In this document: positions 32,976 through 61,425 of the stretch, in pieces
Numbering within the stretch: the stretch's first letter is position 1
Layout of the letters: each line of letters starts with the position of its first letter
From: Segatella oris
GTDB lineage: Bacteria > Bacteroidota > Bacteroidia > Bacteroidales > Bacteroidaceae
NCBI RefSeq assembly: GCF_900637655.1
Contig: NZ_LR134384.1
Coordinates: forward strand, 1-64,000
Reading direction: 5' to 3'
Length of the DNA: 64,000 nucleotides
Position numbers and translations under genes: made by a program
The notes under the pieces: model-generated
The model's input: the letters and a program-made list of their open reading frames with translations, nothing else
The model's database searches: none
Told to the model about the DNA's origin: nothing

Positions 32976-33365
32976 CTTTTGTAAAGATATCAGCTCGTTT
33001 TTAACATTTCTCATCCTCATCAAATAGAAATGAAAAGCCACTTTCAATGCCTGTGTGAAGTCATTTAATGGCTTTGGTATTCTCATTTTTACCCTTTCAA
33101 TTTACAATTCCAGTCACTTCATCCTGCAATCTGCATCACTTTACACGCTAAAGTGAGTCAAATTGCCACGTATTTTGACACAGATTGCATGGTAACTTGA
33201 TACAAGTTACAACGTTTTCTATCGTGATTTTATCGTGCAATTCGCCTTGAGTTCCATAACACCCTGACTGTCAATATATTGCAAAACACCCAAAAACAGC
33301 ATTTATTTAGACCAAGAAAGGACTTCAGTTCAAATCTACAAGCATGATGAGAACATTTGTAAACA
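32976..33365 (+). repeat. dispersed intergenic element, copy A
   Basis: It starts CTTTTGTAAAGAT and continues TTTTTAACATT, AAATAGAAATGAAAAGC, CTCATTTTTACCCTTTC, TTTTGACACAGATTGCA, GGTAACTTGATACAAGTTAC, then AACGTTTTCTATCGTGATTT and ends with CATTTGTAAA. The same order is present in copies B and C. It fills the gap between the DUF2339 and FMN-binding genes. A minus frame of 102 codons in this copy is not kept in the others, so the element is not coding. Confidence 0.65.
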
Positions 33366-33465
33366 ATCATGAACAGAATTAACACATTATTTGCTTCCGC
33401 TCTTCTGCAAGGTTAAAAAACCTAATTTTTACCTGTCATAGCCCGCACTATTCATTTTATTTCGC

Positions 33466-33473
33466 TATCTTTG
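33466..33473 (+). promoter_or_regulatory. -7 box (TATCTTTG) for the FMN-binding gene
   Basis: TATCTTTG fits TAnnTTTG and lies 36 bp before the ATG at 33509. No good TTTG -33 box is visible at 19-20 bp upstream, so the promoter may be weak or activated. Confidence 0.45.
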
Positions 33474-33508
33474 CCCACGTTTTAACGGATAATTTAAGAA
33501 GCAAAACG

Positions 33509-33910
33509 ATGAAAAAGAGAATGAATGGACTACTCACAACCCTCACAGCATGTGCGATGGTTGTAATCATGATGAGTGCAATGCCTGCCGATAACATCAT
33601 GACTAAGGAAAATGATACGACGATTATCAACACCAATCTATTGGGAAAAGGCATCAAAGGTTTCAAGGGAACAACCCCTGTGAAGATATATATCAAACAG
33701 GATAAAGTCGTGAAAATCGAGGCACTTCCTAATCATGAAACGCCTAAGTTCTTTGACAAAGCGAAAACTTTGCTGACAGAATACAACGGAAAAAGCGTTT
33801 CGAAGGCAGCCAAGATGGATGTCGATGGGGTCAGCGGAGCTACATATTCATCGAAAGCATTAAAGAAGAACGTACAGTTGGGCTTAGAGTATTACAAGAA
33901 GAACAATTGA
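33509..33910 (+). CDS. exported FMN-binding domain protein
   Basis: The 133-aa protein has a signal peptide (MKKRMNGLLTTLTACAMVVI...SAMPA) and one FMN_bind domain ending in DVDGVSGATYSSKALKKNVQ. In this family the Thr of the SGAT motif is where FMN is covalently attached (as in RnfG/NqrC). The small single-domain form is probably a periplasmic flavoprotein passing electrons; the partner is not in the window. Terminator hairpin 30 bp downstream. Confidence 0.85.
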   Translation: MKKRMNGLLTTLTACAMVVIMMSAMPADNIMTKENDTTIINTNLLGKGIKGFKGTTPVKIYIKQDKVVKIEALPNHETPKFFDKAKTLLTEYNGKSVSKAAKMDVDGVSGATYSSKALKKNVQLGLEYYKKNN

Positions 33911-33940
33911 TTTCAGCCACATTTTTTTAAAGAAATATAG

Positions 33941-33970
33941 AAGGAGAAGTGTCGAACTTCTCCTTTTTTT
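33941..33970 (+). terminator. terminator of the FMN-binding gene
   Basis: AAGGAGAAG (33941-33949) pairs with CTTCTCCTT (33957-33965) and is followed by a run of T. It separates this gene from the susC promoter. Confidence 0.85.
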
Positions 33971-33972
33971 AT

Positions 33973-33980
33973 TATATTTG
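33973..33980 (+). promoter_or_regulatory. -7 box (TATATTTG) for the SusC-like gene
   Basis: TATATTTG fits TAnnTTTG and lies 33 bp before the ATG at 34013. A -33 box is not evident at the usual distance because the terminator T-run occupies it. Confidence 0.45.
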
Positions 33981-34012
33981 CAATATAAACATGACGAATA
34001 TATAGCCCTAAC

Positions 34013-36721
34013 ATGAAACACCTAAACATTCTAATCGCATTTCAATTCCTTGCAATGCCTGCTGCAATGGCACAGAAAATCACTAAGGGTATCGACTCCA
34101 TAGCTATCAAACAGCTCACACCCAACGTGTCTCAAGGGCCTATTGACATTATCACAGAGCGGCAAATGAACAAAGGATTGGTCACCAACTCGCTTAATGC
34201 GTTGAGCGGACAAGCGGCAGGTGTGAACATTTCTTCAGGTGAAAACCGTATGGCCCAGCTTAATAGTGTACGCGTTCGCGGTACAACTTCACTCACAGGA
34301 GGCAACGACCCACTCGTTATTATCGACGGAGTCTACAGTGACTTGGCAACACTTTCCACCGTTTATCCTGCCGACATAGAGCGCTTTGCCATACTGAAGA
34401 ACGCCACGGAAACGGCTAAATATGGTTCAAGAGGCGCTTCGGGAGTCATTCAGGTGACAACTAAAAAAGGCAATGGAAGCCTGTTTCACATCAGCTATGA
34501 CGGCAATATAGGCTTCGAACGAAAATACAATAAACTCCAAATGCTGTCTGCACGCGACTACATCAACACTGCCAAGCGGCTCGGCCTCAAGTATGTTGAC
34601 GGAGGATATAACTCTGATTTCCAGGATGCTATTACGAGAACAGGCTTCGTTCAGAACCATCATGTGGCCTTCAGTGGCGGTTCTCCCAACAGCAACTACC
34701 GTGCTTCAGTCGGCTTAATGCAGCATGATATGGTCGTAAAAATCACCGAAAGCCATAACTTCGTGGCTAAGTTCGACCTCACACAAAAGGCTTTCGATGA
34801 CCTGTTACAGATTGATTTCGGAGTCTTCGGCTCATCACAGAAGAACAAATTCATTGCAGATGAGCAGAAACTTTTCTATGGAGCAGCCACTCAAAACCCT
34901 ACTTTCCCGGAAAGAAAGAATGCAAATGGTGGCTGGGATCGCAATGGGGCAGCCAGTCAGATAGCCTCACCTTTGGCCGAACTGAATAAGAAAGAGCATG
35001 AACAAAGCCTGAACTTCAACACGCATCTGGGGCTTGATTTCGCGCTTAATCCTTCACTCAATCTGCGGTTTTTCGGCAGCTACAGCTATACATCGCTTGA
35101 AAATGCCTCGTATTATCCTACGTGGGTGTGGGCACAGGGACAGGCTTTTCGTGGTGAACACAAAAGCGAAGAATGGTTAGGCAACGTCACATTGGACTAT
35201 CATCATCAATGGGATATGCACGAAGTCAATGCAACAGCCATGACAGAATATCAGAAAAGCCAGCGTACCGGCTTCTGGACGACAGTGAAAGGCTTTACTA
35301 CCAACGATATCGGCTATAACAATCTGGCTGCCGGTTCCACGCGCCCTTATGGTGGAACTGGCTCTGAATACAGCGATCCCTCCTTAGCTTCTGTGATGGG
35401 AAGTGTCAGTTATACGCTGCTCAAACGCTACACCCTTGATATGAATCTGCGTGCCGATGGCAGCAGTCTCTTTGGGAAAAACAACAAATGGGGGTTCTTT
35501 CCATCTGTTTCCGGCACGTGGGTTATCAGCCAGGAACCGTTCTTCAAGCCCCTCAATAAAGTCATCAACCTATGGAAACTGCGTACAGGCTATGGGCAAA
35601 GTGGTAATCAAGGCGGCATCGACTCCTACAACTCAATGGCACTATTGCGTCCCACGGGCGTCATTAGTGTACAAGGTTCGCCTACAACTACATTCGGACA
35701 ATTCCGCAATACGAACCCCGATTTGAAATGGGAAACGCGCAGTACCTTCAATATTGGCACCGACATAGCGCTTCTCAACAGCAGGATTGTGCTCACTGCA
35801 GAATACTATTACAGTCTCACTACCGACATGTTGTACCAGTATGATGTGCCTGTTCCACCCTTTACTTTCAATAAGTTCTTAGCCAACTTAGGTAAGATGA
35901 GCAACAGTGGTCTTGAGTTTGGACTCGGAATTATACCGATAACAAAGAAAGATATGGAGTTGAACATCAACATGAATGTGGCCTTCCAGAAGAACAAACT
36001 GATTTCACTTTCAGGCAATTACAAAGGGAGTAACCTCACTGCTGCCGACATCATAAGCATCGGACAGCTTAATGGTGCAGGCTTTCATGGCGGTAACAAC
36101 AACATCGTTTATCAGATTGTGGGACAGCCACTCGGCGTGTTCTATCTGCCTCATTGCACAGGACTGCACCGCAACGACAATGGAAGCTACAGCTATACTA
36201 TCGCTGACTTAGACCATAACGGGAGTGTAAACCTCGAAGACGGAGGCGACCGTTATATCGCCGGACAAGCCACTCCGAAATGGACTTTGGGTTCAAACAT
36301 CAGCTTTCGCTACAGAGATTTCGATGTATCTCTACAGATAAACGGTGCCTTTGGGCATAAAATCTACAATGGAACCAGCCTCACTTACATGAACATGTCA
36401 AGTTTTCCAGACTACAATGTAATGGCTAAGGCACCACAGATGAACATCAAAGACCAGATTGCTACAGACTACTGGTTGGAGCGCGGAGACTATATTAACT
36501 TCGATTATCTTACGATTGGCTGGAACATTCCTGTCAAGTCACGTTATATCAGCGCCCTCCGTCTGTCGTGTTCTGTCAACAATATAGCCACCATTACAGG
36601 CTACAGCGGACAGACACCCATGATAAACAGCTACATCGTCAATGGCACTTTGGGCATTGACGACAAGCGAACCTATCCTCCTTATCGCGCTTATTCTATT
36701 GGCATGAGCATTCAATTCTAA
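34013..36721 (+). CDS. SusC/RagA-type TonB-dependent receptor, short N-terminus
   Basis: After a signal peptide (MKHLNILIAFQFLAMPAAMAQ) the plug domain begins almost at once: SVRVRGTTSLTGGNDPLVII (the SusC-family DPLVIIDG motif), YGSRGASGVIQVTTKKG, then a 22-strand type barrel ending YRAYSIGMSIQF. At 902 aa it lacks the roughly 90-residue carboxypeptidase-regulatory domain that most SusC proteins carry in front. It imports a glycan or peptide across the outer membrane with its SusD partner (next gene, 11 bp away). The substrate is unknown; no glycosidase is near. Confidence 0.92.
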   Translation: MKHLNILIAFQFLAMPAAMAQKITKGIDSIAIKQLTPNVSQGPIDIITERQMNKGLVTNSLNALSGQAAGVNISSGENRMAQLNSVRVRGTTSLTGGNDPLVIIDGVYSDLATLSTVYPADIERFAILKNATETAKYGSRGASGVIQVTTKKGNGSLFHISYDGNIGFERKYNKLQMLSARDYINTAKRLGLKYVDGGYNSDFQDAITRTGFVQNHHVAFSGGSPNSNYRASVGLMQHDMVVKITESHNFVAKFDLTQKAFDDLLQIDFGVFGSSQKNKFIADEQKLFYGAATQNPTFPERKNANGGWDRNGAASQIASPLAELNKKEHEQSLNFNTHLGLDFALNPSLNLRFFGSYSYTSLENASYYPTWVWAQGQAFRGEHKSEEWLGNVTLDYHHQWDMHEVNATAMTEYQKSQRTGFWTTVKGFTTNDIGYNNLAAGSTRPYGGTGSEYSDPSLASVMGSVSYTLLKRYTLDMNLRADGSSLFGKNNKWGFFPSVSGTWVISQEPFFKPLNKVINLWKLRTGYGQSGNQGGIDSYNSMALLRPTGVISVQGSPTTTFGQFRNTNPDLKWETRSTFNIGTDIALLNSRIVLTAEYYYSLTTDMLYQYDVPVPPFTFNKFLANLGKMSNSGLEFGLGIIPITKKDMELNINMNVAFQKNKLISLSGNYKGSNLTAADIISIGQLNGAGFHGGNNNIVYQIVGQPLGVFYLPHCTGLHRNDNGSYSYTIADLDHNGSVNLEDGGDRYIAGQATPKWTLGSNISFRYRDFDVSLQINGAFGHKIYNGTSLTYMNMSSFPDYNVMAKAPQMNIKDQIATDYWLERGDYINFDYLTIGWNIPVKSRYISALRLSCSVNNIATITGYSGQTPMINSYIVNGTLGIDDKRTYPPYRAYSIGMSIQF

Positions 36722-36732
36722 CTCTTTTTCAT

Positions 36733-38334
36733 ATGGGAAAACGACTCTTCACTATCACTCATATCTTCATGGCAACAGTCATGGCGTTGCTTTTCAATGC
36801 CTGTCTTGATGAAACTCCAAAAGACAAGCTTGAAGAAGATAAGCTTTATACATCGGCCAGCAACCTATATATCAACACCATTGGCAACCTTTACCACCAG
36901 ATTGGAGGTTATTCTGACAGTCAAGGACTACAAGGAACCAACCGAGGTATATACGACTACAACACCTTTTCCACTGACGAAGCAATGCTTCCCATACGTG
37001 GTGGCGACTGGTATGACGGCGGGTTCTGGCAGAATCTCTATCATCATGAGTGGACATCTACCGATCTTCCGCTCCTCAACACATGGAACTATCTCTATGG
37101 CAGCGTGTCACTTTGCAACCACGCACTTTATGAAATAGACCAGCACAAGCAACTTCTTACCGACGAACAATATAAGGAATACGCTGCAGAAGCACGTGGA
37201 CTGCGTGCCTTGTTCTACTTCTATATCATGGACATGTGGGGCAATGTGCCCCTTGTCATGCAGGAAGGTGTGACCTTGGAAGATGTAAAACAGTCTACCA
37301 GAAAGAAAGTAACCACCACGCTTATCAACGAACTTTTAGCCGCAATTCCCTATCTGCCCAATGCACACAGCAATCACGAAGGCAACTATTATGGCCGTTT
37401 CACGCGACCCGTGGCTTACTTCCTGCTGGCTAAAATTCTGCTCAATCATGAAGTTTATCTTCATGATGACACGCTGACTTTCGATATTAACGGACAGAAA
37501 CTCAAAGCGTTGGAGGCATGTATTGCCTGTTGTGACAAGATAACCGAAGCCGGATATACACTCGAAAGTGACTATGCAAGCAACTTCAGTGTACACAATG
37601 AAAACTCCAACGAGAATGTCTTTACCATCCCAATGGACAAGACTCTCTACAGCAACAAGTTCTTTTATCTCTTCCGAAGCCGTCATTACAGCCATGGAGG
37701 AGCATATAGAATGGACGCAGAAAACGGCAGCTGTGCCACGCTTTCAACAGTAAAAGCCTACGGATATGGCACATCACAGGAAGACAAACGCTACAGAATA
37801 AACTTCTTCAGCGATACCGTTCGCGTGGATGGAAAGGTTGTTTATCAGGAAAACAGCGAGCCGTTGGTCTATTATCCGAATGAAGTGGCACTCAGTCTTA
37901 CGGGGAGTAAGTATGAGAAAACGGCCGGAGCACGCATGGCAAAATATGAGATTGACCGCACAGCTTATGATGATGGCCGACTGCAAGACAATGACATCGT
38001 GCTCTTCCGCTATGCCGATGTGGTGCTGATGAAGGCAGAAGCCCTCGTCAGAAACGGCAAAAACGGAGACAAGGAGCTTAACCTCGTGCGCCAACGGGCA
38101 GGAATGACATCGCGTTCTGCCACACTTTCCAATATTCTTGAAGAGAGATTGCTTGAACTGATGTGGGAAGGCTGGCGCCGTAATGACCTTATCCGTTTCG
38201 GTCTTTACCACAAAGCCTACGATCTTCGACAGCCCATTGAAGGCGAAGAAAGCCGATTCACCAATCTCTTCCCTATCCCGAAAAACATTCTGAAGATGAA
38301 TGGTAATCTTCAACAGAACCCCGGTTATAAGTAG
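36733..38334 (+). CDS. SusD/RagB-type outer-membrane lipoprotein
   Basis: The 533-aa protein has a lipobox at about residue 24 (LLFNAC) and the SusD sequence pattern: LYINTIGNLYHQIGGYSDSQ, YAAEARGLRALFYFYIMDMW followed by GNVPLV, FTRPVAYFLLAKILLN (tetratricopeptide-like helices), ADVVLMKAEAL and RRNDLIRFG. It caps the SusC barrel and binds the substrate. Surface-exposed lipoprotein, same operon as the SusC gene. Confidence 0.93.
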   Translation: MGKRLFTITHIFMATVMALLFNACLDETPKDKLEEDKLYTSASNLYINTIGNLYHQIGGYSDSQGLQGTNRGIYDYNTFSTDEAMLPIRGGDWYDGGFWQNLYHHEWTSTDLPLLNTWNYLYGSVSLCNHALYEIDQHKQLLTDEQYKEYAAEARGLRALFYFYIMDMWGNVPLVMQEGVTLEDVKQSTRKKVTTTLINELLAAIPYLPNAHSNHEGNYYGRFTRPVAYFLLAKILLNHEVYLHDDTLTFDINGQKLKALEACIACCDKITEAGYTLESDYASNFSVHNENSNENVFTIPMDKTLYSNKFFYLFRSRHYSHGGAYRMDAENGSCATLSTVKAYGYGTSQEDKRYRINFFSDTVRVDGKVVYQENSEPLVYYPNEVALSLTGSKYEKTAGARMAKYEIDRTAYDDGRLQDNDIVLFRYADVVLMKAEALVRNGKNGDKELNLVRQRAGMTSRSATLSNILEERLLELMWEGWRRNDLIRFGLYHKAYDLRQPIEGEESRFTNLFPIPKNILKMNGNLQQNPGYK

Positions 38335-38336
38335 GA

Positions 38337-39902
38337 ATGCGGATAAATGGCCCACTACAACGCTATCCTCTGCTGCGTATTGCCCTTGTTCTGATAGGCG
38401 GAATAGCTGTCGGCGATGCCTGTTACCCCACACTTGGCACAGGCTTCTGGCTCATCTGTGCCTGCGTGAGCATTGCCTTGGCACTGCTTTCCAAGCGAGC
38501 AGCATGGCGTAACGGCTGCATTTTCGTCATCACGCTGACGGTAGGTGCAACGTTAATAAATCGCAGTGAGCAGCATGCCGACTGCAAGTTGCCTCACGGA
38601 GAAAGCCACTATGAGGCCATTATCAGCAACACTCCGACCCTGCATGGCAAGACTTGGCGATGTGACTTGTTGTTGACAAAGCTCAACGGGCAGCCGCTCC
38701 GCAATGCCATTACCGTGAGGGCAACGGTTCTGAACGACCCCAACAGACCGATGCAACTGCAAACCGGCAATGGCATCATTGCTTCATCAGTTCTTGAAAA
38801 ACCACAAAACCGTTGGCCCAATGCCCATTTTGATTATGCACTTTGGCTCAGACGGCATGGCTATCAGGCTGAAACATTCATTCCTTACTGGCAGTTTCAG
38901 ACGGCAGAAGTGCCTATGACATTGGGTCGCCGGCAACGAGCAACACTCCAGGTTCGCCGTCTTCGCGACCGCATCATACGACATTTCGCATCGTCATCCC
39001 ATGCCGACAATCAAGACTATACCATTCTCCAAGCCATGGTCTTAGGCCACCGCGAAGCTGTCAGTAAAGCCACACGAGAAACCTATGCACTATCAGGAGG
39101 CAGTCATATCCTGGCACTTTCGGGACTGCATATCGGCATTATCTTTGGCATTTTCCTGCTCGTTTTCGGCCGAAATGTATTTGCAATGACACTATCTATC
39201 CTCACTATTTGGGCCTTTGCCTTCTTAGTTGGACTGCCACCCTCGGTAGTTCGCAGTGCCGTGATGCTCACCACCTACGCGTTTGTCAGTCTGCTTGGCC
39301 GCGAAAACATCAGTCTCAACACGCTCGCCTTAGCCGCATTAATCATTCTCATAGCCCAACCCATGACGCTATGGGACGTTGGTTTCCAGCTATCCTTTAT
39401 GGCCGTAGCCGGTATTCTCATTGCCTATAAACCGCTTTTTCAGTTATTCAACCCCATAACTCGCCTGCTCCGATGGGCATGGGGCATGATTTGCGTGTCG
39501 GTTTCAGCCCAATTGCTCACGTTTCCCCTGCTGCTTCACTATTTCGGTCATTTCTCCACATACTTCCTCCTGACCAATTTCATCGTTGTTCCGGCAGCAA
39601 CCGCCATACTCTATCTTGCCTTTCTGACAGTTCTCTCCACACCTTTCGTGGCCTTGCAAAACCTAATTTTCAATGCTATGACCACCATAACAGGCTGGAT
39701 GAACACTTCCGTTACCGCCATTTCACGCCTCCCCTATGCCTCCATTGACTGCGGACATCTCTCTTTCTTGCAAACCGTTTGCCTCTATGTTTTCGTATTT
39801 TCAATGATGGGAATATACAGAACAGCCTTCTACAACACATCAGAAGCGGGGAAATCTCAGGCAACAGAATTCTCAATGGCAAAGAAGAAGATACAAGGAT
39901 AA
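38337..39902 (+). CDS. comEC: ComEC/Rec2-family DNA-uptake membrane protein
   Basis: The ATG lies 2 bp after the susD stop. The 521-aa protein shows three N-terminal membrane helices, an OB-like periplasmic part and the competence core: LSGGSHILALSGLHIGIIFG (the conserved SG-H-ALSGLH motif), LVGLPPSVVRSAVMLTTYAF and LTFPLLLHYFGHFSTYFLLT. There is no C-terminal metallo-beta-lactamase domain, as often in Bacteroidota. It would form the inner-membrane channel for single-stranded DNA during transformation. Its operon position behind susCD is probably accidental. Confidence 0.88.
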   Translation: MRINGPLQRYPLLRIALVLIGGIAVGDACYPTLGTGFWLICACVSIALALLSKRAAWRNGCIFVITLTVGATLINRSEQHADCKLPHGESHYEAIISNTPTLHGKTWRCDLLLTKLNGQPLRNAITVRATVLNDPNRPMQLQTGNGIIASSVLEKPQNRWPNAHFDYALWLRRHGYQAETFIPYWQFQTAEVPMTLGRRQRATLQVRRLRDRIIRHFASSSHADNQDYTILQAMVLGHREAVSKATRETYALSGGSHILALSGLHIGIIFGIFLLVFGRNVFAMTLSILTIWAFAFLVGLPPSVVRSAVMLTTYAFVSLLGRENISLNTLALAALIILIAQPMTLWDVGFQLSFMAVAGILIAYKPLFQLFNPITRLLRWAWGMICVSVSAQLLTFPLLLHYFGHFSTYFLLTNFIVVPAATAILYLAFLTVLSTPFVALQNLIFNAMTTITGWMNTSVTAISRLPYASIDCGHLSFLQTVCLYVFVFSMMGIYRTAFYNTSEAGKSQATEFSMAKKKIQG

Positions 39903-39917
39903 ACGGCTTTGATTTTA

Positions 39918-40215
39918 TTTTACAAAACACCTTATGAGATTTCAATATTCAGAACGAGACTTTTTATTTTTGTAAATACGCCCGAAAATCGCCTGCTTAG
40001 CAACCTGTTGACTATCAAAATATTACGGGATTTGCAGCAAGTTATTGAGTAAAACAAGGAAAAACAACAGTTAAAATCACGTCAAATCAGCTTGTAATTT
40101 GATGCAGATTACAGCCTGAAATGAGGCAGAAAGCGAGACCGTTTGACGCATTTGGCGCGGAAAAGTGACGCGTATTGCAGGCAAAAGTGAATGAAAAACA
40201 GATTTAAATCGGGGC
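39918..40215 (-). repeat. dispersed intergenic element, copy D (reverse)
   Basis: On the minus strand it contains AATCTGCATCAAATTACAAG, TTTGACGTGATTTTAACTG, GGGCGTATTTAC, CTCGTTCTGAAT and ends GTTTTGTAAAA, all in the order of the other copies. It lies in the 537-bp gap between comEC and the C1 peptidase gene, which has no other gene-like content except the hairpin at 40388-40422. This is the most diverged copy. Confidence 0.45.
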
Positions 40216-40387
40216 AAACCCCACTTTCAAGCGAAATTCATGGCTTTGGAATTTCTATTTGGTGAGAAAATCAAGACATGTTTTTAAGCAATAAAAATCA
40301 ACAAAATGAAGTTTTGTTTTCCCTAAAAGAATACCGCAAAAAACAAAGGAAAAGGAAGAATATGAATGTGGAAAGCATTTCCTGTCC

Positions 40388-40422
40388 CTTTGCTTCAGCT
40401 CAAAATTCAGGCTGAAGCAAAG
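40388..40422 (-). terminator. hairpin after the C1 peptidase gene
   Basis: CTTTGCTTCAGC (40388-40399) pairs exactly with GCTGAAGCAAAG (40411-40422), a 12-bp stem starting 18 bp beyond the peptidase stop in its direction of reading. No T run follows, so it could be a terminator or a mRNA 3'-end stabiliser. Confidence 0.55.
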
Positions 40423-40439
40423 AGGCAGGAAAGGCATTT

Positions 40440-41846: not shown

Positions 41847-41882
41847 AGTGATGCAAAGTTACACATTATCAACTATTTTTTA

Positions 41883-41890
41883 TACCTTTG
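41883..41890 (+). promoter_or_regulatory. -7 box (TACCTTTG) for the CobW-like gene
   Basis: TACCTTTG fits TAnnTTTG, 45 bp before the ATG at 41935. Another -7 box on the opposite strand at 41861-41854 serves the C1 peptidase gene, making an 88-bp divergent promoter region. Confidence 0.5.
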
Positions 41891-41934
41891 CATGCGATTT
41901 CTACATTAATATATATTAAAGAAAGGAAACAGAG

Positions 41935-44049: not shown

Positions 44050-44075
44050 CAAAGTTAATCATACTCATTGTATTG

Positions 44076-48822: not shown

Positions 48823-49212
48823 TCTTTTGTAAAGTTATTATCTCAAATTTAACACTTTTTCCTGCGACTAAATAGAAATGGAAAGCTGTCTTCAACGTGA
48901 GTGCGAAACCATTTTATAGTCTCGATACCCTCATTTTTATCCTTTGGATTTGCAATCTCAGTCATTTCAGCCCGCAATATGACTGTCTTTACAGCGCATG
49001 ATGATGCAAAACACATGGTAACTTGACGCAGATTGCAAAGTAATTTGACACAAATCACAGCGTTTTCTAACGTGATTTTACGCTGCATTTTGCATCTTCT
49101 TTCACAACAAACTGAATGTCAGCATGTTACAAACTATCAAAATACAGCGCGTATTTGAAGCGAGGATGACTTTATTTCTGAATTTACAAAATCTACGAGA
49201 GCAATTGTAAAG
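48823..49212 (+). repeat. dispersed intergenic element, copy B
   Basis: It begins CTTTTGTAAAGTTATT, then ATTTAACACTTTTTCC, AAATAGAAATGGAAAGC, CTCATTTTTATCCTTTG, GGTAACTTGACGCAGATTGC and AGTAATTTGACACAAATCAC as a tandem pair, CGTTTTCTAACGTGATTTTA, TTACAAACTATCAAAATACA, CGCGTATTTGAAGCGAGGAT and closes GCAATTGTAAAG. This is the clearest copy, in the gap between trkH and a 49-residue gene. A minus frame at 48849-49088 is not conserved between copies. Confidence 0.7.
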
Positions 49213-49300
49213 TCCTGTGATAAAAATTAACATATAATCTGCCATGCCGAATGATATGAGATTTTATCATTCATTTCGCCAGACAAAACCCTAAGACCGG

Positions 49301-50490: not shown

Positions 50491-50560
50491 ACCTTTTATC
50501 AACTGAACTTGTGGAGAAAGAAAAAGCATTCTGTCGCACAAGAAACTTCATATAAACAAA

Positions 50561-50598: not shown

Positions 50599-50599
50599 G

Positions 50600-51239: not shown

Positions 51240-51299
51240 ACGTTTGGCATGTAATTTGATAGCACAGTTTCCATATAAATCAGAAATGCATACTATAAC

Positions 51300-53351: not shown

Positions 53352-54213
53352 CAAAATGAAGAATTTGATTGTGAGAGCCATCAGCGGTGCGCTCTTCGTC
53401 GTTATCATGGTGGGTGGCTTCATGAGTCCACGCACAATGGTGGCATTGTTTGCCCTGATTACCGGACTGACCGTATGGGAATTCACCGGATTAGTGAACC
53501 AAAGAAAGGGCGTAACGGTCAATCGTTTCATCAGCACAGTGGCTGGAGTTTATTTCTTTCTGGCCGTAGCTGCCTTCCGAATGGGCATCACATCAAACTT
53601 CATTATCTTTGTTCCTTACCTGCTTACAATCATCTATCTCTTCATCAGCGAACTCTACCTGAAACAGGAAGACCCTGTCAACGACTGGGCATATACCATG
53701 CTTTCGCAACTCTATATTGCCCTCCCGTTCTCCATGATCAACGTTCTTGGCTTTGAACTTTCGGAAGACGGCCTCAGCTGTCACTACAACATGCTGCTTC
53801 CACTGTGTGTATTCATCTTCCTTTGGCTTAATGATACGGGAGCCTACTGCAGCGGATCACTGTTTGGGAAACACAAACTTTTCCCACGCATCAGCCCGGG
53901 TAAGAGTTGGGAAGGAAGCATTGGAGGTGGTATTCTCGTGATGATTGTGGCTGCTTTCATCGGTTACTACACCAATGAAAACGGCCAAATTTCACAGCTT
54001 TCTGTTCTCGGTTGGGTTGGATTAGGACTCATCGTAGTGGTTTTCGGCACATGGGGAGATCTCGTAGAGAGCCTTTTCAAGCGCACATTGGGCATTAAAG
54101 ACAGCGGGAAAATCATGCCGGGTCATGGTGGAATGCTCGACCGTTTCGATTCTTCTCTCATGGCTATTCCTGCTTCTGTCGTGTATCTCTACACACTGCA
54201 ACTACTTTCATAA
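53344..54213 (+). CDS. cdsA: phosphatidate cytidylyltransferase
   Basis: The 289-aa membrane protein has about seven helices and the CDP-diglyceride synthetase signature near the end: GDLVESLFKRTLGIKDSGKI followed by MPGHGGMLDRFDS. LWLNDTGAYCSGSLFGKHKL with RISPGKSWEGSIGG is the catalytic Mg site region. It makes CDP-diacylglycerol from phosphatidate and CTP for phospholipids. The end of the rsfS-ftsH-cdsA group. Confidence 0.95.
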   Translation: MSDKMKNLIVRAISGALFVVIMVGGFMSPRTMVALFALITGLTVWEFTGLVNQRKGVTVNRFISTVAGVYFFLAVAAFRMGITSNFIIFVPYLLTIIYLFISELYLKQEDPVNDWAYTMLSQLYIALPFSMINVLGFELSEDGLSCHYNMLLPLCVFIFLWLNDTGAYCSGSLFGKHKLFPRISPGKSWEGSIGGGILVMIVAAFIGYYTNENGQISQLSVLGWVGLGLIVVVFGTWGDLVESLFKRTLGIKDSGKIMPGHGGMLDRFDSSLMAIPASVVYLYTLQLLS

Positions 54214-54240
54214 GGACACTGTTCACAACAAAACAGCCCC

Positions 54241-54278
54241 ATACATGCGAGGACTTTCTTCCTCGCATGCTTTGTTTT
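54241..54278 (+). terminator. terminator of the ftsH-cdsA transcript
   Basis: CATGCGAGGA pairs with TCCTCGCATG across a TTTCT-type loop (about 54244-54271), followed by TTTGTTTT, 30 bp after the cdsA stop. Confidence 0.8.
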
Positions 54279-54307
54279 AAAACCTCTCTGCTAAAGACTG
54301 ATTTTTC

Positions 54308-54620
54308 TTTACAATAGCCCACACAGGAAGGGGCATGTTTCAAAATAAAAGTTCAACGGTCGGAAATACGCGAGTTTTGAGCCTCTTTGCTAACAAACTG
54401 TACATCAATCAATTACATCATTTCTTGCTTTTTATTTCATAACATCACAGGAAAAAGCACTGCAATTTGAGTCATCTTACAGGGTGATTTGCGTCAAATT
54501 ACCCCGTAATCTGCTACAGATGACACACCAAACTATGGCATATTACACCCTAAAATGACAGAAAATATAAAATCAGCAAACCGAAAACATAAAATCAAGT
54601 CAATCAAAACAGCAGACAAC
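54308..54620 (-). repeat. dispersed intergenic element, copy E (reverse)
   Basis: On the minus strand it carries GGTAATTTGACGCAAATCAC, GATGACTCAAATTGCA, AACTCGCGTATTTCCGACCG and closes GCTATTGTAAAG, which match the middle and end of copies A-C. It lies in the 790-bp gap between cdsA and tRNA-Leu. The rest of the gap (54620-54960) shows nothing gene-like. Confidence 0.55.
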
Positions 54621-54967
54621 ATGCCATTTTCCTCCTCTTTTTTTCTAATTCATAACTTTAAAAGGATGGCTTTTCTGACCAATTAATTTGACAAATATTG
54701 AAATCAATAAACACAGTGCATAGAAGTAAACAGAACTGGAGATAGTTCGTCAGTCGTTGTCAGTTTCCTTGTATATGCCCTAAAACAGCCGCATTTCATG
54801 CAATTCAAACATACACTTTTTGCACGTTATAAAGGCGCAACAAACGATTATCGGAGTAAAATCATGAGGAACATCTGCAAGTCTTTTCCTTAATATTAAA
54901 AAGCAAGTGCAATGAAATAATGCCATTCACAACGGCAAAACAGCATCTGTTTTTACAGAAAGAAAAA

Positions 54968-54996
54968 GCCAAGCAGTTAATAATCAACTACTTGGC
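54968..54996 (-). terminator. terminator of tRNA-Leu
   Basis: GCCAAGCAGTT pairs with AACTACTTGGC (one mismatch) and is followed on the minus strand by TTTTTCTTT. It lies 12 bp past the 3' end of the tRNA. Confidence 0.7.
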
Positions 54997-55007
54997 AATC
55001 TGTACTG

Positions 55008-55089
55008 TGCGCCTGATAGGACTCGAACCTACACGGCATGAACCACTAGATCCTAAGTCTAGCGCGTCTACCAATTTCGCCACAAGCGC
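55008..55089 (-). tRNA. tRNA-Leu (TAG)
   Basis: Minus strand: acceptor GCGCTTG/CAGGCGC, D-arm with AAATTGGTAGAC, anticodon stem CTAGA/TCTAG with loop CTTAGGA (anticodon TAG), a long class II variable arm, T-arm with GGTTCGAGTCC, discriminator A; 82 nt, no encoded CCA. Decodes leucine CUA/CUN. Confidence 0.94.
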
Positions 55090-55248
55090 TTTGTGGATGC
55101 AAAGATACAATAAAATTCCGAGATAACGAAAAGAGGATGACGATTTTTTAACGCTTTTGCGCAATGTCCAAACGATTTCACTGAATATCCTGACTGCTAT
55201 GCACGCTGTCTTTTCCGCTATGACTTAAGGGGCTGTTTCGTGTGTTCA

Positions 55249-56058
55249 CTAACGCTCACGGATAGCCGAAGGCGACTCTCCAAGCTGTGCCTGTACGTAA
55301 CGGGTGAAGTGGGCCGGCGATGAGAAATTAAACTTTTCACTGATCTCCAACACTGATAATCGCCGATTACGCAAGTGCAACCGAATGTCAATCTTTACAA
55401 AATGATGTATCCAATAGTTGGCAGGATGCCCCGTAACTGTACGGCAAACGTCCGACAGATACTTGGCCGTGACAAAGAGTTTATCGGCATAATAAGCCAC
55501 TTCCCGATGTAACTTATACTCACCATTCTGCAACAGTTTGATGAAATCCCGAATAAGTCTTGCCGACCGAAGAGGCACATGTGTGGGGCCGTAAATACGG
55601 TCTTCGAAGTGAAAGATGTCTAAGAAGAACTGCAAACAACTTACGGCAAGCGCATCAAGATAAAAGGCATGACACCTGTTATCGGCTCTCTTGACAATGG
55701 CATTCATGTCATCCTGGCATACTTTTGCTTCTTTCTCGGTCAATTCCAAAATTGGGTTTTCCATCAGTAACAACGTGCTTCTGACACCGAAATTGGCATC
55801 AGGAGCCGCCGAATCCATAAAAGGAATATTGATATAGAGTACTGTTACTTCGAATTTTTCATGCAGAGAGAAGTCTTTCAATAAATGATGTTCTCGAACG
55901 ATTAACAAGTTGTTTTTCTGAATGTTATATTGTTTGTCGTTGTAAATAAAGCTGCACGAGCCTTGCAAACATAACACATGAGCAACATAATCCTTGGTTT
56001 CAGTAGCTCCCATCTTCGTAAAGTCACTTCCGGTAATGATTGTTTCGCGGTAGTCCAT
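55249..56058 (-). CDS. AraC-family transcription regulator
   Basis: The 269-aa protein has an N-terminal cupin-like sensor half (HVLCLQGSCSFIYNDKQYNI) and the AraC double helix-turn-helix at the C-terminus: YYADKLFVTAKYLSDVCRTV and LSVLEISEKFNFSSPAHFTR followed by YVQAQLGESPSAIRE. The ligand and target are unknown; it is transcribed leftward, downstream of the parC-DUF3316-S41 row but separated by 120 bp. Confidence 0.9.
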   Translation of the reverse strand: MDYRETIITGSDFTKMGATETKDYVAHVLCLQGSCSFIYNDKQYNIQKNNLLIVREHHLLKDFSLHEKFEVTVLYINIPFMDSAAPDANFGVRSTLLLMENPILELTEKEAKVCQDDMNAIVKRADNRCHAFYLDALAVSCLQFFLDIFHFEDRIYGPTHVPLRSARLIRDFIKLLQNGEYKLHREVAYYADKLFVTAKYLSDVCRTVTGHPANYWIHHFVKIDIRLHLRNRRLSVLEISEKFNFSSPAHFTRYVQAQLGESPSAIRER

Positions 56059-56178
56059 AAGCTGGGAATAATTAAGTTAATGAAGCGCCTTATCAGCAGA
56101 ACTCCAAGACAAAGATAGACATAATAAGTCAAAAGCACTGTCAAGTTTTAAGAAAAGTTTTTATGTTTCTAAACATTT

Positions 56179-57198
56179 CTATTTCAATATCTTACGTGCT
56201 TGTTCGATGATTGTATCTATTCCGCTGAAGAAGTCAAATCTATTGAGCCCTGCATGCACATCAGGTGGGATGCCAAATTCCGTACTTTGTCCGTCTTTAT
56301 CATAGATAGGACAAGCTGAGAAACGTACACTCCACCCGTTAGGCAATTCACTACTGAAGGGAAGTCCAGCTCCCCCACCGGTCGTGTCGCCTACAATCTT
56401 GACGTTAGGGCAGCATTTCATATACTTCACAAACTCGTTGGCAGCACTGTAAACGCCACGGTTTGTCAGCACAATAACAGGTTTTTGCCAGCGCAAACCA
56501 CGGCTTGGATGCAGCCATTGCTCTTTCATTGCAGAGAAATCATTATGCCCTCGTCCTGTCTTATGCTGGAAATAGCCTACAAGAATATCATCATTCGTGA
56601 AGCGTGCTGCCAGCTCTTCAGCACTCGAAATCATTCCTCCGCCGTTATTACGGATGTCGATAATCAGACCACGTGCCGTCAGGAAATAAGCTAAGATCTC
56701 ATTCAAGTTGCCGCTTCCCAACCCATATTCGAACGTTGCACAGCGTATATAGCCGATATTATCATCAAGGATACGATACTTCATTCCATTGGAAATGCGG
56801 TAGTCTGTGCCTAAATAACGGTTGATTAATGAGTCGTTTACATTGCTCGGATAGTTCTCACGCCACGACCAGTTGCGTGCAATATTGAAGCTGGTGTACA
56901 TGTTTACATGCCCATCCCGTAGTTCACCGAGCATGTTCCCAAGTACTTCGAAAAGCTGTCCTTCGGTCATCTGACCGTTAATCTGCTTGCTGTAACGCGC
57001 GTAAACATCATTCCAGTCGAGACCATATTGCTTGGCTTTATAGTCAAAAAAACAGTAATGCTCATCTATGATACGCCATAACGCTTCAAAATTTCCCCGT
57101 GGATTGTTGGCAAACTCATCTTCCTTTACGCAACCGGACAGCAGAGATGCGCAAAGAAACAGCAGTAAAGGCAATATGGAACGTAGGAAATGCTTCAT
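56179..57198 (-). CDS. S41 (tail-specific) peptidase, lipoprotein
   Basis: The 339-aa protein has a lipoprotein signal (LFLCASLLSGC, lipid Cys at about 22) and an S41 core: INGQMTEGQLFEVLGNMLGE, LRDGHVNMYTSF, GLIIDIRNNGGGMISSAEEL and the catalytic segment IVLTNRGVYSAANEFVKYMK with its Ser (Ser-Ala-Ala-Asn-Glu) followed by GDTTGGGAGLPF. No PDZ domain is obvious. It is a cell-envelope protease of unknown target. Starts four bases inside the DUF3316 gene (ATGA). Confidence 0.88.
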   Translation of the reverse strand: MKHFLRSILPLLLFLCASLLSGCVKEDEFANNPRGNFEALWRIIDEHYCFFDYKAKQYGLDWNDVYARYSKQINGQMTEGQLFEVLGNMLGELRDGHVNMYTSFNIARNWSWRENYPSNVNDSLINRYLGTDYRISNGMKYRILDDNIGYIRCATFEYGLGSGNLNEILAYFLTARGLIIDIRNNGGGMISSAEELAARFTNDDILVGYFQHKTGRGHNDFSAMKEQWLHPSRGLRWQKPVIVLTNRGVYSAANEFVKYMKCCPNVKIVGDTTGGGAGLPFSSELPNGWSVRFSACPIYDKDGQSTEFGIPPDVHAGLNRFDFFSGIDTIIEQARKILK

Positions 57199-58049
57199 CT
57201 TCTGACATGAGTTAGCTTAAACGTTTTGGTCACCCCGAGCAGCAAAGTATGCGTATAGGTGTGGTATTTTATTTTATTTACGTGCGCTTGCAGATACTCC
57301 CCTTGGTATCCAATGCGGAGAGTTGCCCGCCAAAGAGGGATATCCAAGGTCAGGAAATGCCGTAAAGAAGGCGTATTTCCAATATAGGTCGGCACAATAT
57401 TATGGTCGTAATTGCCTTTCGAAAACAGCTCATAATAGGATTGTCCATAGTTAGGTGAGAACATCACTCCCACCAAAGGCATACCCACTTCATAACGCAA
57501 ACGGAAGTCGCGAAACCCACTTGAACAGAAAGGATTTTGGAAATTGTAGGTCAAAGCAGCCACCGGAAGCAGGTTAAGAAAGGCATGAGCCTGAGCCGGA
57601 TTATTGCTGTTACGCGTATTATAAAGGAAACCGAGATTGAGTTCTGCATTTCCTCCGGCCTCCAACTGTAACTCATTACGCCCTAACTTCCATGCTCCAC
57701 AGAGATAATGCAGGCCACACTGGAAGTTATAGTTACCGGCGATTTCCCTTCCATTCTTGGCTCGATTGTTCACATAGGCTATGTTGCCTTGATGAATTAA
57801 CTCATAGATCATATGGCTTCCCTCACGTTGTCGCAGCGTATGACTGATGTAACGGAGGTCTAATCCCGTGTATTCTTCAGGACTGAGATACGTATCAAGG
57901 AGGTTTGTTGTGCCCCACCCTATCATCTTACTATTGGTGATGACACGTTCTCCGGCCCTCACCTTATCGGTCTGGGCAGTAGAAACCAACGGGCAAAGAC
58001 ATAACATCAAACCCGCCAAAAAGATGTTATTTCGTATTGTTCGCATCAT
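57195..58049 (-). CDS. DUF3316 outer-membrane-type protein
   Basis: The 284-aa protein has a signal peptide (NIFLAGLMLCLCPLVSTAQ) and repeated amphipathic strands ending LLLGVTKTFKLTHVRR. It reads NSKMIGWGTTNLLDTYLSPE, EYTGLDLRYI, RNELQLEAGGNAELNLGFLY and FRDFRLRYEVGMPLVGVMFS, as in the DUF3316 family of Bacteroidota. This is likely an outer-membrane barrel; function unknown. Its start overlaps the parC end by 23 bp and its end overlaps the S41 gene by four, so it is translationally coupled to both. Confidence 0.8.
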   Translation of the reverse strand: MMRTIRNNIFLAGLMLCLCPLVSTAQTDKVRAGERVITNSKMIGWGTTNLLDTYLSPEEYTGLDLRYISHTLRQREGSHMIYELIHQGNIAYVNNRAKNGREIAGNYNFQCGLHYLCGAWKLGRNELQLEAGGNAELNLGFLYNTRNSNNPAQAHAFLNLLPVAALTYNFQNPFCSSGFRDFRLRYEVGMPLVGVMFSPNYGQSYYELFSKGNYDHNIVPTYIGNTPSLRHFLTLDIPLWRATLRIGYQGEYLQAHVNKIKYHTYTHTLLLGVTKTFKLTHVRR

Positions 58050-60738
58050 CTTCAGGGAACAAACTCAATTGTCCATTTAATTCATCTATCACCTGTTGCT
58101 GGCTTTTTCCTGCGTCGGGATCAAGATTTTCAGGTTCTTCTTCAACCTCGTCCTCGTCATCCTGCACTTCCGGTTCAGGGAAACGGACTGGTTCAAGCTC
58201 TTCAATCGTCCCGATTTGCCATGTAGAAATGCGCTTACCTTTAGCCTTGAAGCCTTTCTGTCCAATGAATTGTTCAGCGTCAATCTCTTCTGGTGAGCGT
58301 GCAGCATCATGTCCGCCATAGGTTACCTTGATGCGAGGGAATGGCACATCCGTAAGGATTACGAGCCTGCTATTGGCGTTTTCACCGACAAAGTTCTGCG
58401 GTTTTGCCATTGCATCCATCGTGAAGCGCTTGATATAAGGATAGCCCTGATTGTCTGCATCGAAGAGAACAGCTGTCCAAACTTTATCCGGTTGCCACTT
58501 CTCTATCCTCACAATATTGTCCGGATAGTGGTTGTTGGCATCGAAATTCGTAATATAGAAGTCGTTGTTATCAAGGATAACGAGGATGCGATCTTCATCA
58601 AAGAACTCCCCGAGGAAGCGTCCGTGTTCCTCATAGTTGATGCGCTTCACGTCGGGATCAAACCACACTTTACGTCCACCGAGCGTTGAGTGCCCTTGGC
58701 TTTTCAGTCCAATGCGGTGGATACTCTGCTTGGTTAAGATGACACCTTTGGCTCCACGGCTCTTGATCATCACCTTACTAAAGTCGCGTTCAAGGAAGAT
58801 ATTCTGGCGTTTCTTCTTCGGATCAGGCTCAAGAACAACCTTAATGATTTCGGCTTCTCCATTAGGATTGGCCGTGAAATAATTCACTTTCGACCCCGGA
58901 GTGCCTGCAGTAAGGTCGTATTCACGGTCACGTGTCATACTGGTCACGTTGAAACGCTTCATATAATAATAGCCTTCACGACCATCTTTATATACAACAT
59001 TATATATAGTACGCTTATCATTCTTCTTGAATACCTGCAACCAAATGATTCCCTTGCCTACAAATATCTTGTCAGCAACCTTGATTATCTTGTATTTTCC
59101 ATTCTTATAGAAGATGATAATGTCGTCAATGTCGGAGCAGTTACAAACAAATTCGTCCTTCTTCAGCCCTGTTCCGATGAATCCTTCCTGCCTGTTGATG
59201 TAGAGTTTCTGGTTGGCTTCCACCACCTTTGCACTGTCGATAGTGTCGAAACTGCGTATTTCGGTATGACGAGGATGCTCATTTCCATATTTATTCTTGA
59301 TGAACATAAACCAGTTAATGGTTACATCTGTCATGTGTTCCAAGTCGTGTTCAATCTCAGCTACTTCTGCCTTGATGCGTGCAATGAGTTCATCGGCCTT
59401 GTCTTTATTAAACTTCAAGATACGTTGCATCTTGATTTCCATGAGCCTGAGAATGTCATCACGCGTCATTTCACGAATGAAATCGGGCTTGAACGGTGTG
59501 AGTTTCAGATCAACAAAAGCAACAGCTTCGTTCATGTCCGCAGCCTGTTCAAACTTCTTTTCCTTATAGATGCGCTGCTCAATGAATATCCGTTCGAGAC
59601 TGGCAAAGAAGAGTTGTTCGAGCAATTCTCCCCTTCTAATCTGCAGTTCCTTGCGCAAAAGTCCCATCGTTCGGTCCACCCCATGGCGCAACACATCGCT
59701 GACCGTAAGGAAACAAGGCTTGTTGTCTTCGATAACACAGCAGTTGGGAGAGATGTTTATCTCACAATCACTGAAAGCATATAGGGCATCCATGGTCTTG
59801 TCTGACGACACACCGGGGGCCAAGTGCACCTGAATTTCCACTTCAGCTGCCGTGTTATCATCCACGCGCTTGGCTTTGATTTTCCCCTTATCTATGGCTT
59901 TCAAGATGCTGTCGATAAGCGTAGTTGTAGTCTTACTGAATGGGATTTCACGGATAACAAGTGTCTTGTTGTCGAGCTTTTCAATCTTTGCTCTCACCTT
60001 CAACACACCGCCCCGCTGTCCGTCATTATATTTACTGACATCAATAGCACCACCTGTCGGGAAGTCGGGATAAAGCTGAAAATCTTCTCCCCGCAGGTAT
60101 TTGATAGCTGCATCACAGATTTCATTCAAGTTATGCGGCAACAGTTTGCTGCTCAATCCGACAGCAATACCCTCGGCTCCCTGGGCAAGAAGCAACGGGA
60201 ACTTCACGGGAAGCGTGATCGGTTCCTTGTTTCTTCCGTCATAACTCAACTGCCAATCCGTGGTCTTTGGATTGAAAACTACGTCAAGAGCAAACTTCGA
60301 AAGGCGCGCTTCTATATAGCGTGGCGCCGCAGCTCGGTCTCCGGTAAGGATGTTTCCCCAGTTTCCCTGGCAGTCAATGAGCAGGTCTTTCTGTCCCATC
60401 TGCACCAAAGCATCTCCTATAGAAGCATCACCATGGGGATGAAACTGCATGGTATGTCCCACAATATTAGCCACTTTGTTGTAACGTCCGTCGTCCATAC
60501 GCTTCATGGAGTGAAGAATACGGCGCTGAACCGGCTTCAGTCCGTCCTCAATATGAGGCACAGCACGCTCTAATATCACATAGCTGGCATAGTCAAGAAA
60601 CCAATTCTTGTACATACCACTAAGATGATGCACCGCAGATGCATCAAACCTATCGGCCGGTTTGTAGTTAGAATGAGCATCATCGACCATGTTTTCGTCC
60701 TCGTTGAGATATTCGTTGTCTTTGATTTCGTCGTCCAT
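58027..60738 (-). CDS. parC: DNA topoisomerase IV subunit A (ParC/GyrA family)
   Basis: The start is MDDEIKDNEYLNEDENMVDD at 60738; the frame is open to 61047, but the extra front is Cys/Phe-rich and upstream of the promoter. The 903-aa protein has HPHGDASIGDALVQMGQ (quinolone region), the catalytic Tyr in DRAAAPRYIEARLSKFA, and a C-terminal half without the GyrA box, with an acidic tail (EVQDDEDEVEEEPENLDPDA). The absence of a GyrA box and the divergent beta-propeller favour ParC, although Bacteroidota databases often say gyrase A. It decatenates daughter chromosomes. Confidence 0.85.
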   Translation of the reverse strand: MDDEIKDNEYLNEDENMVDDAHSNYKPADRFDASAVHHLSGMYKNWFLDYASYVILERAVPHIEDGLKPVQRRILHSMKRMDDGRYNKVANIVGHTMQFHPHGDASIGDALVQMGQKDLLIDCQGNWGNILTGDRAAAPRYIEARLSKFALDVVFNPKTTDWQLSYDGRNKEPITLPVKFPLLLAQGAEGIAVGLSSKLLPHNLNEICDAAIKYLRGEDFQLYPDFPTGGAIDVSKYNDGQRGGVLKVRAKIEKLDNKTLVIREIPFSKTTTTLIDSILKAIDKGKIKAKRVDDNTAAEVEIQVHLAPGVSSDKTMDALYAFSDCEINISPNCCVIEDNKPCFLTVSDVLRHGVDRTMGLLRKELQIRRGELLEQLFFASLERIFIEQRIYKEKKFEQAADMNEAVAFVDLKLTPFKPDFIREMTRDDILRLMEIKMQRILKFNKDKADELIARIKAEVAEIEHDLEHMTDVTINWFMFIKNKYGNEHPRHTEIRSFDTIDSAKVVEANQKLYINRQEGFIGTGLKKDEFVCNCSDIDDIIIFYKNGKYKIIKVADKIFVGKGIIWLQVFKKNDKRTIYNVVYKDGREGYYYMKRFNVTSMTRDREYDLTAGTPGSKVNYFTANPNGEAEIIKVVLEPDPKKKRQNIFLERDFSKVMIKSRGAKGVILTKQSIHRIGLKSQGHSTLGGRKVWFDPDVKRINYEEHGRFLGEFFDEDRILVILDNNDFYITNFDANNHYPDNIVRIEKWQPDKVWTAVLFDADNQGYPYIKRFTMDAMAKPQNFVGENANSRLVILTDVPFPRIKVTYGGHDAARSPEEIDAEQFIGQKGFKAKGKRISTWQIGTIEELEPVRFPEPEVQDDEDEVEEEPENLDPDAGKSQQQVIDELNGQLSLFPEDDANNTK

Positions 60739-60779
60739 GTAATAATTAATTTTATGCTTGGTGTTTTCTGCAATAGCTA

Positions 60780-60811
60780 CAAAGGTAGTGAGAAATATTG
60801 GAATATGCAAA
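60780..60811 (-). promoter_or_regulatory. promoter of the parC-DUF3316-S41 operon
   Basis: On the minus strand, TTTG (60811-60808) and TACCTTTG (60787-60780) are 20 bp apart, the Bacteroidota consensus, 42 bp before the parC ATG at 60738. Confidence 0.75.
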
Positions 60812-61055
60812 TAAAAAAGAATTTCAAAACGGGATGGACAAAGTTTACAATCACCGTAACCACTATGAAACGAAACGACAACACGCATCCATCCGTAACT
60901 TTCTGACACGACATCCCGTATCTGAATTTCTGTGTATATGCACTGAAACTTATATCTGTTCATCAACACTAAGCATAGTGACAAGAAATTACACACAAAG
61001 CGATGAAAGTTTATTTTCAGCTCGGAAAGGCAACAAAAAGTATTCATGAGCCACC

Positions 61056-61425
61056 TGTTTTTGTAAAGATTACGACACTGTTTTTAACACTTCAGAGCCA
61101 CACCAAATAGAAAATAAAAAGCGAAAAAACAGAGGTCGTCTTTCAATTTCAAGCTTACGGAGCTGCAATCCCATTCATCATAAGTTGTAACTTGACGCAA
61201 AACACGCTGCCATTTGCATCATAACACACGGTGAAACAACTCTAATTGCAAGGTAATTCAATAGTAATCACGCCGTTTTTTGACATGAAAATTCTTCATA
61301 TTTCAAGACAAACTTCACAACCTTCTGACAGACAACGCATTACAAACTGTCAGAAAACAGCGCGTATTCAGAACGAGGAAGACATTCATTCTGAATAACG
61401 CAGCTATGCGAAAGTATTTGTAAAG
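61056..61425 (+). repeat. dispersed intergenic element, copy C
   Basis: It begins GTTTTTGTAAAGATTACG, then TTTTTAACACTTC, CAAATAGAAAATAAAAAGC, GTAACTTGACGCAAAACACG, CATTACAAACTGTCAGAAAA, CAGCGCGTATTCAGAACGAG, ATTCATTCTGAAT and closes TATTTGTAAAG. The order of blocks is that of copies A and B. It fills the gap between the parC promoter and the small lipoprotein gene. Confidence 0.65.

Follow-up and report, generated by a model that had tools for sequence, protein, structure and literature searches.

The window analysed here is a stretch of 64,000 nucleotides of the Segatella oris chromosome, which is a single contig of 3,168,212 bp. Its first 32 kb carry a Mu-like prophage (4897-18687) with a Mu portal protein, a MuB-like AAA protein, an rve-domain protein and an S24 peptidase-type repressor, followed by a run of 12-bp TATTAAGGTAAC-like repeats (20007-20089) and, on the reverse strand at 20929-20998, a match to the Bacteroidetes paralogous sRNA FopS (RF04319). 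This part is free of copies of the intergenic element that is the subject of this work. Five copies, A to E, lie in the remainder of the window, as follows.

32979-33365 (+), copy A, core, matched by nhmmer; 32979..33407 with a right extension of about 42 bp set by eye
33255-33373 (+), copy A right block, matched by the right-block model R2
39917-40303 (-), copy D, degenerate, matched by nhmmer in the gap where comEC and a C1-like peptidase gene converge
39907-40027 (-), copy D right block, R2 match
48827-49212 (+), copy B, core, matched by nhmmer downstream of trkH; 48827..49254 with the right extension
48827..48885 (+), copy B left block, TTGTAAAG ... TTTAACACTT ... AAATAGAAATGGAAA, from the alignment of copies
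48950..49062 (+), copy B array, about five 22-bp imperfect palindromes; limits by eye, period computed
49102..49222 (+), copy B right block, R2 match and alignment
54305 to about 54651-54658 (-), copy E, degenerate, matched by nhmmer in the gap between a cytidylyltransferase (cdsA-like) gene and a tRNA gene
54298-54417 (-), copy E right block, R2 match
61061-61427 (+), copy C, short-left subfamily, matched by nhmmer just upstream of a DNA gyrase/topoisomerase IV A gene
61315-61436 (+), copy C right block, R2 match

An iterated nhmmer profile over 38 loci and the window recovered all five copies with E-values of 4.5e-46 to 1.8e-95, close to the places where an earlier note on this DNA had recognized them as one family, and the alignments of copies reproduce the ordered series of blocks described there. 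Copies D and E are longer than that note had them, and conservation continues in most copies about 42 bp beyond its right ends. No sixth copy in the window is found among the 150 listed places of R1, a sequence-only model built from 30 S. oris copies.

In terms of architecture, imperfect palindromes of 22 bp form a central array that is framed by a left and a right block. The 80 near-full copies in the S. oris genome (copies covering less than 85% of the profile were left out) fall into length classes of 364-366 and 385-388 bp, and the difference between the two is one 22-bp unit. Edge profiles of 70 of these copies, with 10 left out, reveal a sharp left edge at TTTTGTAAA and conservation on the right that in most copies reaches ATTAACATATAATTCGCTT, about 42 bp beyond the end of the model; a full copy is therefore about 430 bp long. 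By eye, the direct motif TTGTAAA-N15-TTAACA is present at both ends. Between the ends lie TTTAACACTTC, CCAAATAGAAATGAAAA and then a GAAGCCATTTTATGGCTTC palindrome that is missing in a subfamily. The array unit of S. oris is of the type GTAATTTG-ACG-CAAATTAC, 22 bp in length; a block that had been noted as often doubled is a piece of this array, which holds four to five units at a 22-bp period. The right block reads TAAC..TTGAT..TCAAC..TTGCAAA and contains in addition the inverted repeat GCGTATTT..AAATACGC. The edge profiles of these 70 copies show no terminal inverted repeat, TTTTGTAAA on the left having no inverse on the right, and no target duplication was seen at the copy edges. A coding relic was rejected because the length classes differ by 22 nt, which is not a multiple of three, and is also disfavoured by conserved columns that, by eye, have no three-periodicity.

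A blastn search of the genome with copy B alone returns 51 pieces at E<=1. R1 yields at least 159 matches when the best 150 of 1604 candidates are scored, so that any copy count is a lower bound; nine of the 159 lie outside the 150 listed places. Merging 149 of those places, the one omitted being half of a split copy, gives at least 147 element places in the 3.17-Mb genome, or roughly one every 21.5 kb in either orientation, which makes the earlier expectation of hundreds per genome nearly right. An abundance no higher than that of shuffled DNA, which would have dissolved the family, is not what is observed: in 1.49 Mb of relatives the profile of S. oris copies has 12 matches at E<=0.01, compared with none in a first-order shuffle of the same DNA. 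R1 has no match at E<=1e-5 in eight genomes of other families. A chance origin of the repeat family is excluded.

The placement is mostly gene-free, as had been stated, with no overlap of an ORF of at least 110 aa (simple ORF caller) for 74 of the 80 copies, and the 147 places are distributed over both strands (83+/64-) with no strand or replichore bias. A replication-oriented signal was rejected, there being no strand pattern. The 80 copies occupy, in raw counts, 38 tandem, 26 convergent and 16 divergent gaps, and no fixed orientation of genes relative to the element was found among them. Spacing is irregular (mean 21.5 kb; CV 1.20 vs 0.99 for random placement), and gaps below 3 kb are rarer than random (4 vs 19), under a null model that ignores that only intergenic gaps are open. 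When 509 proteins from 150 loci were clustered, no gene family recurred beside the element in more than three genomes, and a cognate gene adjoining the element was rejected on this ground. The suggestion of a link to DNA uptake, made because comEC borders copy D, finds no support: comEC adjoins one of at least 147 places, and no neighbouring gene family recurs in more than three genomes. At G000:C1:3000839-3002017, two element matches lie close together beside rimP-like and nusA-like genes; the elements of Segatella maculosa in a rimP/nusA-like neighbourhood have the opposite orientation to those of S. oris.

Identity among the 80 copies is low, as had been noted (mean pairwise 58%; ts/tv 1.0), and is distributed in a position-specific manner. 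Conservation of at least 1.5 bits is seen in 64 of 387 columns, which are 93.4% identical between S. oris copies, and 223 columns with less than 1 bit are saturated, with 42.6% identity vs 43.5% expected from composition. Insertions and deletions are few and mostly of whole units: outside the left-hairpin zone, 18 internal deletions are of 22 or 44 nt and six are of other lengths, and the insertions comprise 37 of 1 nt (29 of them at one column), four of 22 nt and three others.

The 22-bp rhythm was compared among species by self-match against first-order shuffles, using 80 copies from S. oris, 10 from genome G082, nine from G238, 13 from G091 and six from S. maculosa. Self-match peaks exactly at lags 22 and 44 in all five. 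In S. oris the two peaks have z values of 33.7 and 38.3, respectively, and the lag-22 values for the others are 16.4 (G082), 10.1 (G238), 17.8 (G091) and 19.7 (S. maculosa). The letters of the units differ: G082 has similar outer blocks around different array units, ATTCTT-GCG-AAGAAT, G238 has units of GATTA-AGGTC-TAATC, and array-only places in S. maculosa consist of AATCTCAGCCATTTTGC units. Compared with shuffles, palindromes are clearly in excess in S. oris and G091, by about 2 sd in S. maculosa and not significantly in G238 and G082; tandem units spaced at whole helical turns, 22 bp, are thus seen in five species and clear palindromy in two of them.

Whether the conserved positions reflect a transcript was assessed by several measures of structure. 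In the window, Rfam models match FopS and two tRNAs and nothing on the copies. RNAalifold returns zero consensus pairs both on 30 S. oris copies and on 38 right blocks (35 from other genomes and three from the window). The inverted repeat GCGTATTT..AAATACGC is real: it extends to 19 bp in locus L093, and 62.4% of its cells are paired, with 48.0% for the best slid version. The same value exceeds the 59.9% of shuffles only slightly and is reached by 9 of 500 of them, and its covariation score does not go beyond shuffles (62 of 500). Changed-pair counts also remain within shuffles (44 cells vs 36.5; 69 of 500 as high), and the top pairs by MI/APC are not Watson-Crick. The Watson-Crick pairing excess is strongest at centres 168 and 88 (z 3.5 and 3.3). 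About the array spacer (centre 168), the wobble excess is equal for G-U and A-C (z 4.4 each), which suits a dyad in DNA better than a stem in RNA. An RNA gene is accordingly disfavoured by the lack of an Rfam match, of consensus pairs and of covariation beyond shuffles.

Across the genus, R1 finds the element in at least 46 of 299 genomes, including S. oris, with the best four candidates per genome scored. The right block is recognizable more widely. R2, built from 38 sequences, some of them from genomes later searched, matches 122 of the 276 genus genomes that are at least 90% complete, including S. oris (E<=1e-5; best 12 candidates per genome scored), and in 35 of those 122, by our own count, all 12 best candidates match. 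In a sample of the family, 21 of 301 genomes match, including S. oris, 12 of the same genus and nine in four other genera; in a sample of the order S. oris matches and none of the 197 others does. Match counts are very uneven, with at least 150 in S. oris, at least 150 in G238, 127 in G082 and 36 in G192, and 6, 3, 1 and 0 in the genomes G052, G129, G031 and G296. S. maculosa (G307), which is the closest named relative by TrkH (86% aa identity among 80 loci compared), yields 149 matches at E<=0.01. Near-full copies make up about a dozen of these; most of the others are array only, often on both strands. Six of the array-only places in S. maculosa were read, and in G192 two of the 36 matches. 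Another repeated palindromic sequence, of the GTAGGGACGCACGGNCCGTGCGTCC type, adjoins the array-only places of S. maculosa (L274, L278 and L140 17150-17230), and the gap after trkH, which holds copy B in the window, is occupied in S. maculosa (L140, about 11490-11900) by a different tandem repeat, of about 45 bp, which includes a CGCCCTAGGGCG palindrome. Y1/RAYT transposase genes have three matches in S. oris, are present in three of seven copy-poor genomes and have no match in the other copy-rich genomes G307, G082, G238, G192, G091 and G290.

The history of individual copies was followed within S. oris, against S. maculosa and in a pair of sister species. Within S. oris, an identity of 80% or more at variable columns is reached by 2 of 3160 pairs. 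The pairs with the greatest similarity lie close together and are mosaic in identity, most of them inverted, and from this mosaic pattern copies probably exchange tracts by gene conversion; a preference of conversion for inverted pairs was rejected as not significant (p 0.107, inverted vs direct among 86 close pairs). Seven of 20 S. maculosa loci share a flanking gene with the 80 S. oris copies. The orientation is the same at L259 and L262, where both flanks are shared, and at L266, where one is; by our reading, the element is flipped in four shared gaps, one of them in genome G020 (L267, L269, L270 and L088), and L267 and L270 have one S. oris partner in common. Ranked among the 80 S. oris copies at variable columns, the positional partner comes first, 42nd and fourth at the three same-orientation sites, and therefore descent in place is supported there for L259 and perhaps L266 only. 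Conserved columns are as identical with non-partners as with the S. maculosa positional partners.

Synteny with S. maculosa being only partial proof, the case for residence in place rests on the sister species G198 and G053 and is modest there. Five of eight G198 loci have an orthologue among 10 G053 loci, all chosen from top matches and one pair known beforehand. These five orthologues show no indel in 1805 core positions and one in 184 positions of the extension, compared with 10 in 3301 positions of other intergenic DNA, a modest deficit (P 0.043 when the extension is included and, calculated by hand, about 0.013 for the core by itself). The core has an identity of 0.915 and the extension one of 0.853, with 0.911 for the remaining intergenic DNA; at 4-fold sites, available for four of the five pairs, identity is 0.841, below the core. 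The length of the element thus seems to be held, and its substitutions are not slower than those of other intergenic DNA. Four paralogues, one from G198 and three from G053, are 74-89% identical with sharp common ends and unrelated flanks, and therefore the whole unit was copied and then kept. Two larger differences between the sister species adjoin elements: a gap of about 6 kb with a SusD-like gene at the left edge of an element (L291 2870-8869 vs L292), for which no second element flanking the insert was found beside L076, and a 484-bp gap at a right edge that reaches into the extension (L329 1478-1961 vs L336).

The repeat described in the literature that comes nearest to this element is PINSR, described (PMC4755523) as a 188-bp intergenic non-coding repeat of the P. 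intermedia group, with 177 and 184 copies in two strains and no terminal inverted repeats. About three-quarters of its sites are common to the two strains, it is missing from most strain-specific CTns/MTns, and PCR was positive in four species of one clade only (PMC4755523). The S. oris element is likewise intergenic and non-coding, has no terminal inverted repeats and exceeds 100 copies; it differs in length (about 390-430 bp vs 188 bp), and PINSR is reported there as confined to the P. intermedia/nigrescens group, whereas our right block occurs in 122 of 276 genus genomes. A stand-in is provided by genome G091, whose nearest named loci, among 27 compared, are those of P. corporis or P. disiens. 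It has no R2 match at the E<=1e-5 threshold and carries a repeat of about 200 bp composed of 22-bp units with the end TTTTGTAAAGATAATT. In 160 kb of G091, 12 of 14 matches of the right-block profile (E<=1) fall inside these repeats, which cover 2.8% of the sequence; the match to our right block is weak (best E 0.0018), and the order of motifs differs from that of our element. A profile of the G091 repeat finds no copy in the 11.9-kb locus L187 of P. disiens, a PCR-positive species, and one weak match in P. corporis. We infer that the G091 repeat is PINSR or near kin and a member of the broad family that includes our element. With PINSR compared by description and through this stand-in, it is probably a divergent relative. 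The statement in the earlier note that no name was known for the element stands for the wider family, of which the open-licence papers searched gave no description, and not for the probable relative named PINSR (PMC4755523), beyond which no further paper linking PINSR and Prevotella appears in the open-licence literature searched.

Tentatively, and at somewhat less than an even chance, we favour the interpretation that the repeat is a dispersed intergenic DNA element with multiple operators, to which a lineage-specific protein likely binds and which perhaps organises the chromosome. This operator-array reading follows from palindromes spaced at two helical turns, dyads of the DNA type and conserved outer modules, and also from the lack of an orientation rule and from residence across sister species. 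Dimers of a predicted lineage-specific DNA-binding protein would occupy the 22-bp palindromes side by side on one helix face; the binder would change with species and so drive the change of array letters; and the bound elements, about one per 21.5 kb, might act as chromosome-organising or boundary sites, with new copies arising by copying of the whole unit, as the sharp ends and unrelated flanks suggest. A protein-binding array was among the earlier suggestions and is the best reading of the 22-bp array in five species and its DNA-type dyad, with the binder itself a prediction. Against it, a core chromosome system would not be expected to vary so much in copy number (0 to at least 150 matches), the spacing is irregular, and the palindrome excess is clear in two of the five species; neither a binding protein nor a recurrent neighbouring gene was found, and the in-place indel deficit is modest, with a core identity of 0.915 that is not above the 0.911 of other intergenic DNA.

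The strong rival is a non-autonomous mobile family without terminal inverted repeats, moved in trans by a putative enzyme for which the arrays would be binding sites, different among species through different partners. We regard this as a serious, if rather doubtful, possibility. It accounts about as well for the four sharp-ended paralogues with unrelated flanks (G198, G053), for the uneven copy number and species-specific arrays and for the orientation in shared gaps, where the element is flipped as often as not (L267, L269, L270 and L088 vs L259, L262 and L266), and the direct motif at both ends would suit it. It fits less well with the lack of young copies in S. oris, where the 2 of 3160 pairs that reach 80% at variable columns indicate no recent burst, and with intact cores at shared sites, copies staying put in sister species; nor was a terminal inverted repeat or target duplication seen, and the Y1/RAYT genes are missing from six of six other copy-rich genomes. 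The proposal of an old non-autonomous mobile element is thus borne out as regards copying with sharp ends, but "gone old" misfits the fixed length and position-specific conservation. The same alternation of conserved and saturated columns, together with few indels besides whole 22-bp units and a right block recognizable across the genus, is difficult to reconcile with neutral relics, old dead repeats merely looking conserved; the low overall identity and a sister-species substitution rate like that of other intergenic DNA are what such relics would show, and we consider them scarcely credible as the explanation. A bidirectional terminator or insulator between transcription units, consistent with 74 of 80 copies clear of ORFs and with more convergent than divergent gaps (26 vs 16), is improbable given 38 tandem and 16 divergent gaps and no consensus stem. 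A structured regulatory RNA family, also proposed earlier, is not supported and is very improbable: the slight pairing of GCGTATTT..AAATACGC above shuffles and the weak excess at centres 88 and 168 are outweighed by zero consensus pairs, changed pairs within shuffles, non-Watson-Crick top pairs and the lack of an Rfam match.

A bolder form of the operator-array reading, which we consider unlikely, is a genus-wide Prevotella chromosome-addressing system in which hundreds of operator arrays with fixed two-turn spacing and species-rewritten letters would co-evolve with a fast-evolving DNA-binding protein as a new nucleoid-organising type, PINSR being a local dialect. At least 147 places of about 0.4 kb amount to about 2% of the chromosome, and if the arrays are protein sites, a genus prominent in the gut and the mouth would possess a DNA-binding system spanning the chromosome, whose fixed 22-bp period and species-specific letters make the co-evolution of binder and site directly testable over hundreds of sites. 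If the element is mobile instead, it would be a transposon type without inverted ends or known enzyme. Either way, PINSR, thought to belong to one clade, looks like a branch of a much wider family.

Other repeats share parts of this architecture. The BrickBuilt MITE of Porphyromonas gingivalis (PMC4596501) has a leader, tandem repeats of about 23 nt (up to 22.8 units) and a tail, with IS5-like terminal inverted repeats GAGACCTTTGCA and 19 copies in ATCC 33277. Our element is similarly intergenic with outer parts around tandem repeats; identity with BrickBuilt was rejected, as the period is 22 and not 23 nt and there are no IS5-type terminal inverted repeats. BIME/REP sequences with their RAYT occur as intergenic mosaics, hundreds of them, in which palindromic units are accompanied by conserved side motifs, and the S. 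oris element differs from them in its fixed 22-bp period and larger defined unit. A RAYT as mover, and with it membership of REPIN/RAYT or BIME, was rejected from the distribution of Y1 genes (three in S. oris, none in the six other copy-rich genomes). The BOX elements of pneumococcus consist of outer modules that enclose middle units in varying number, an arrangement that, compared by description, our element shares.
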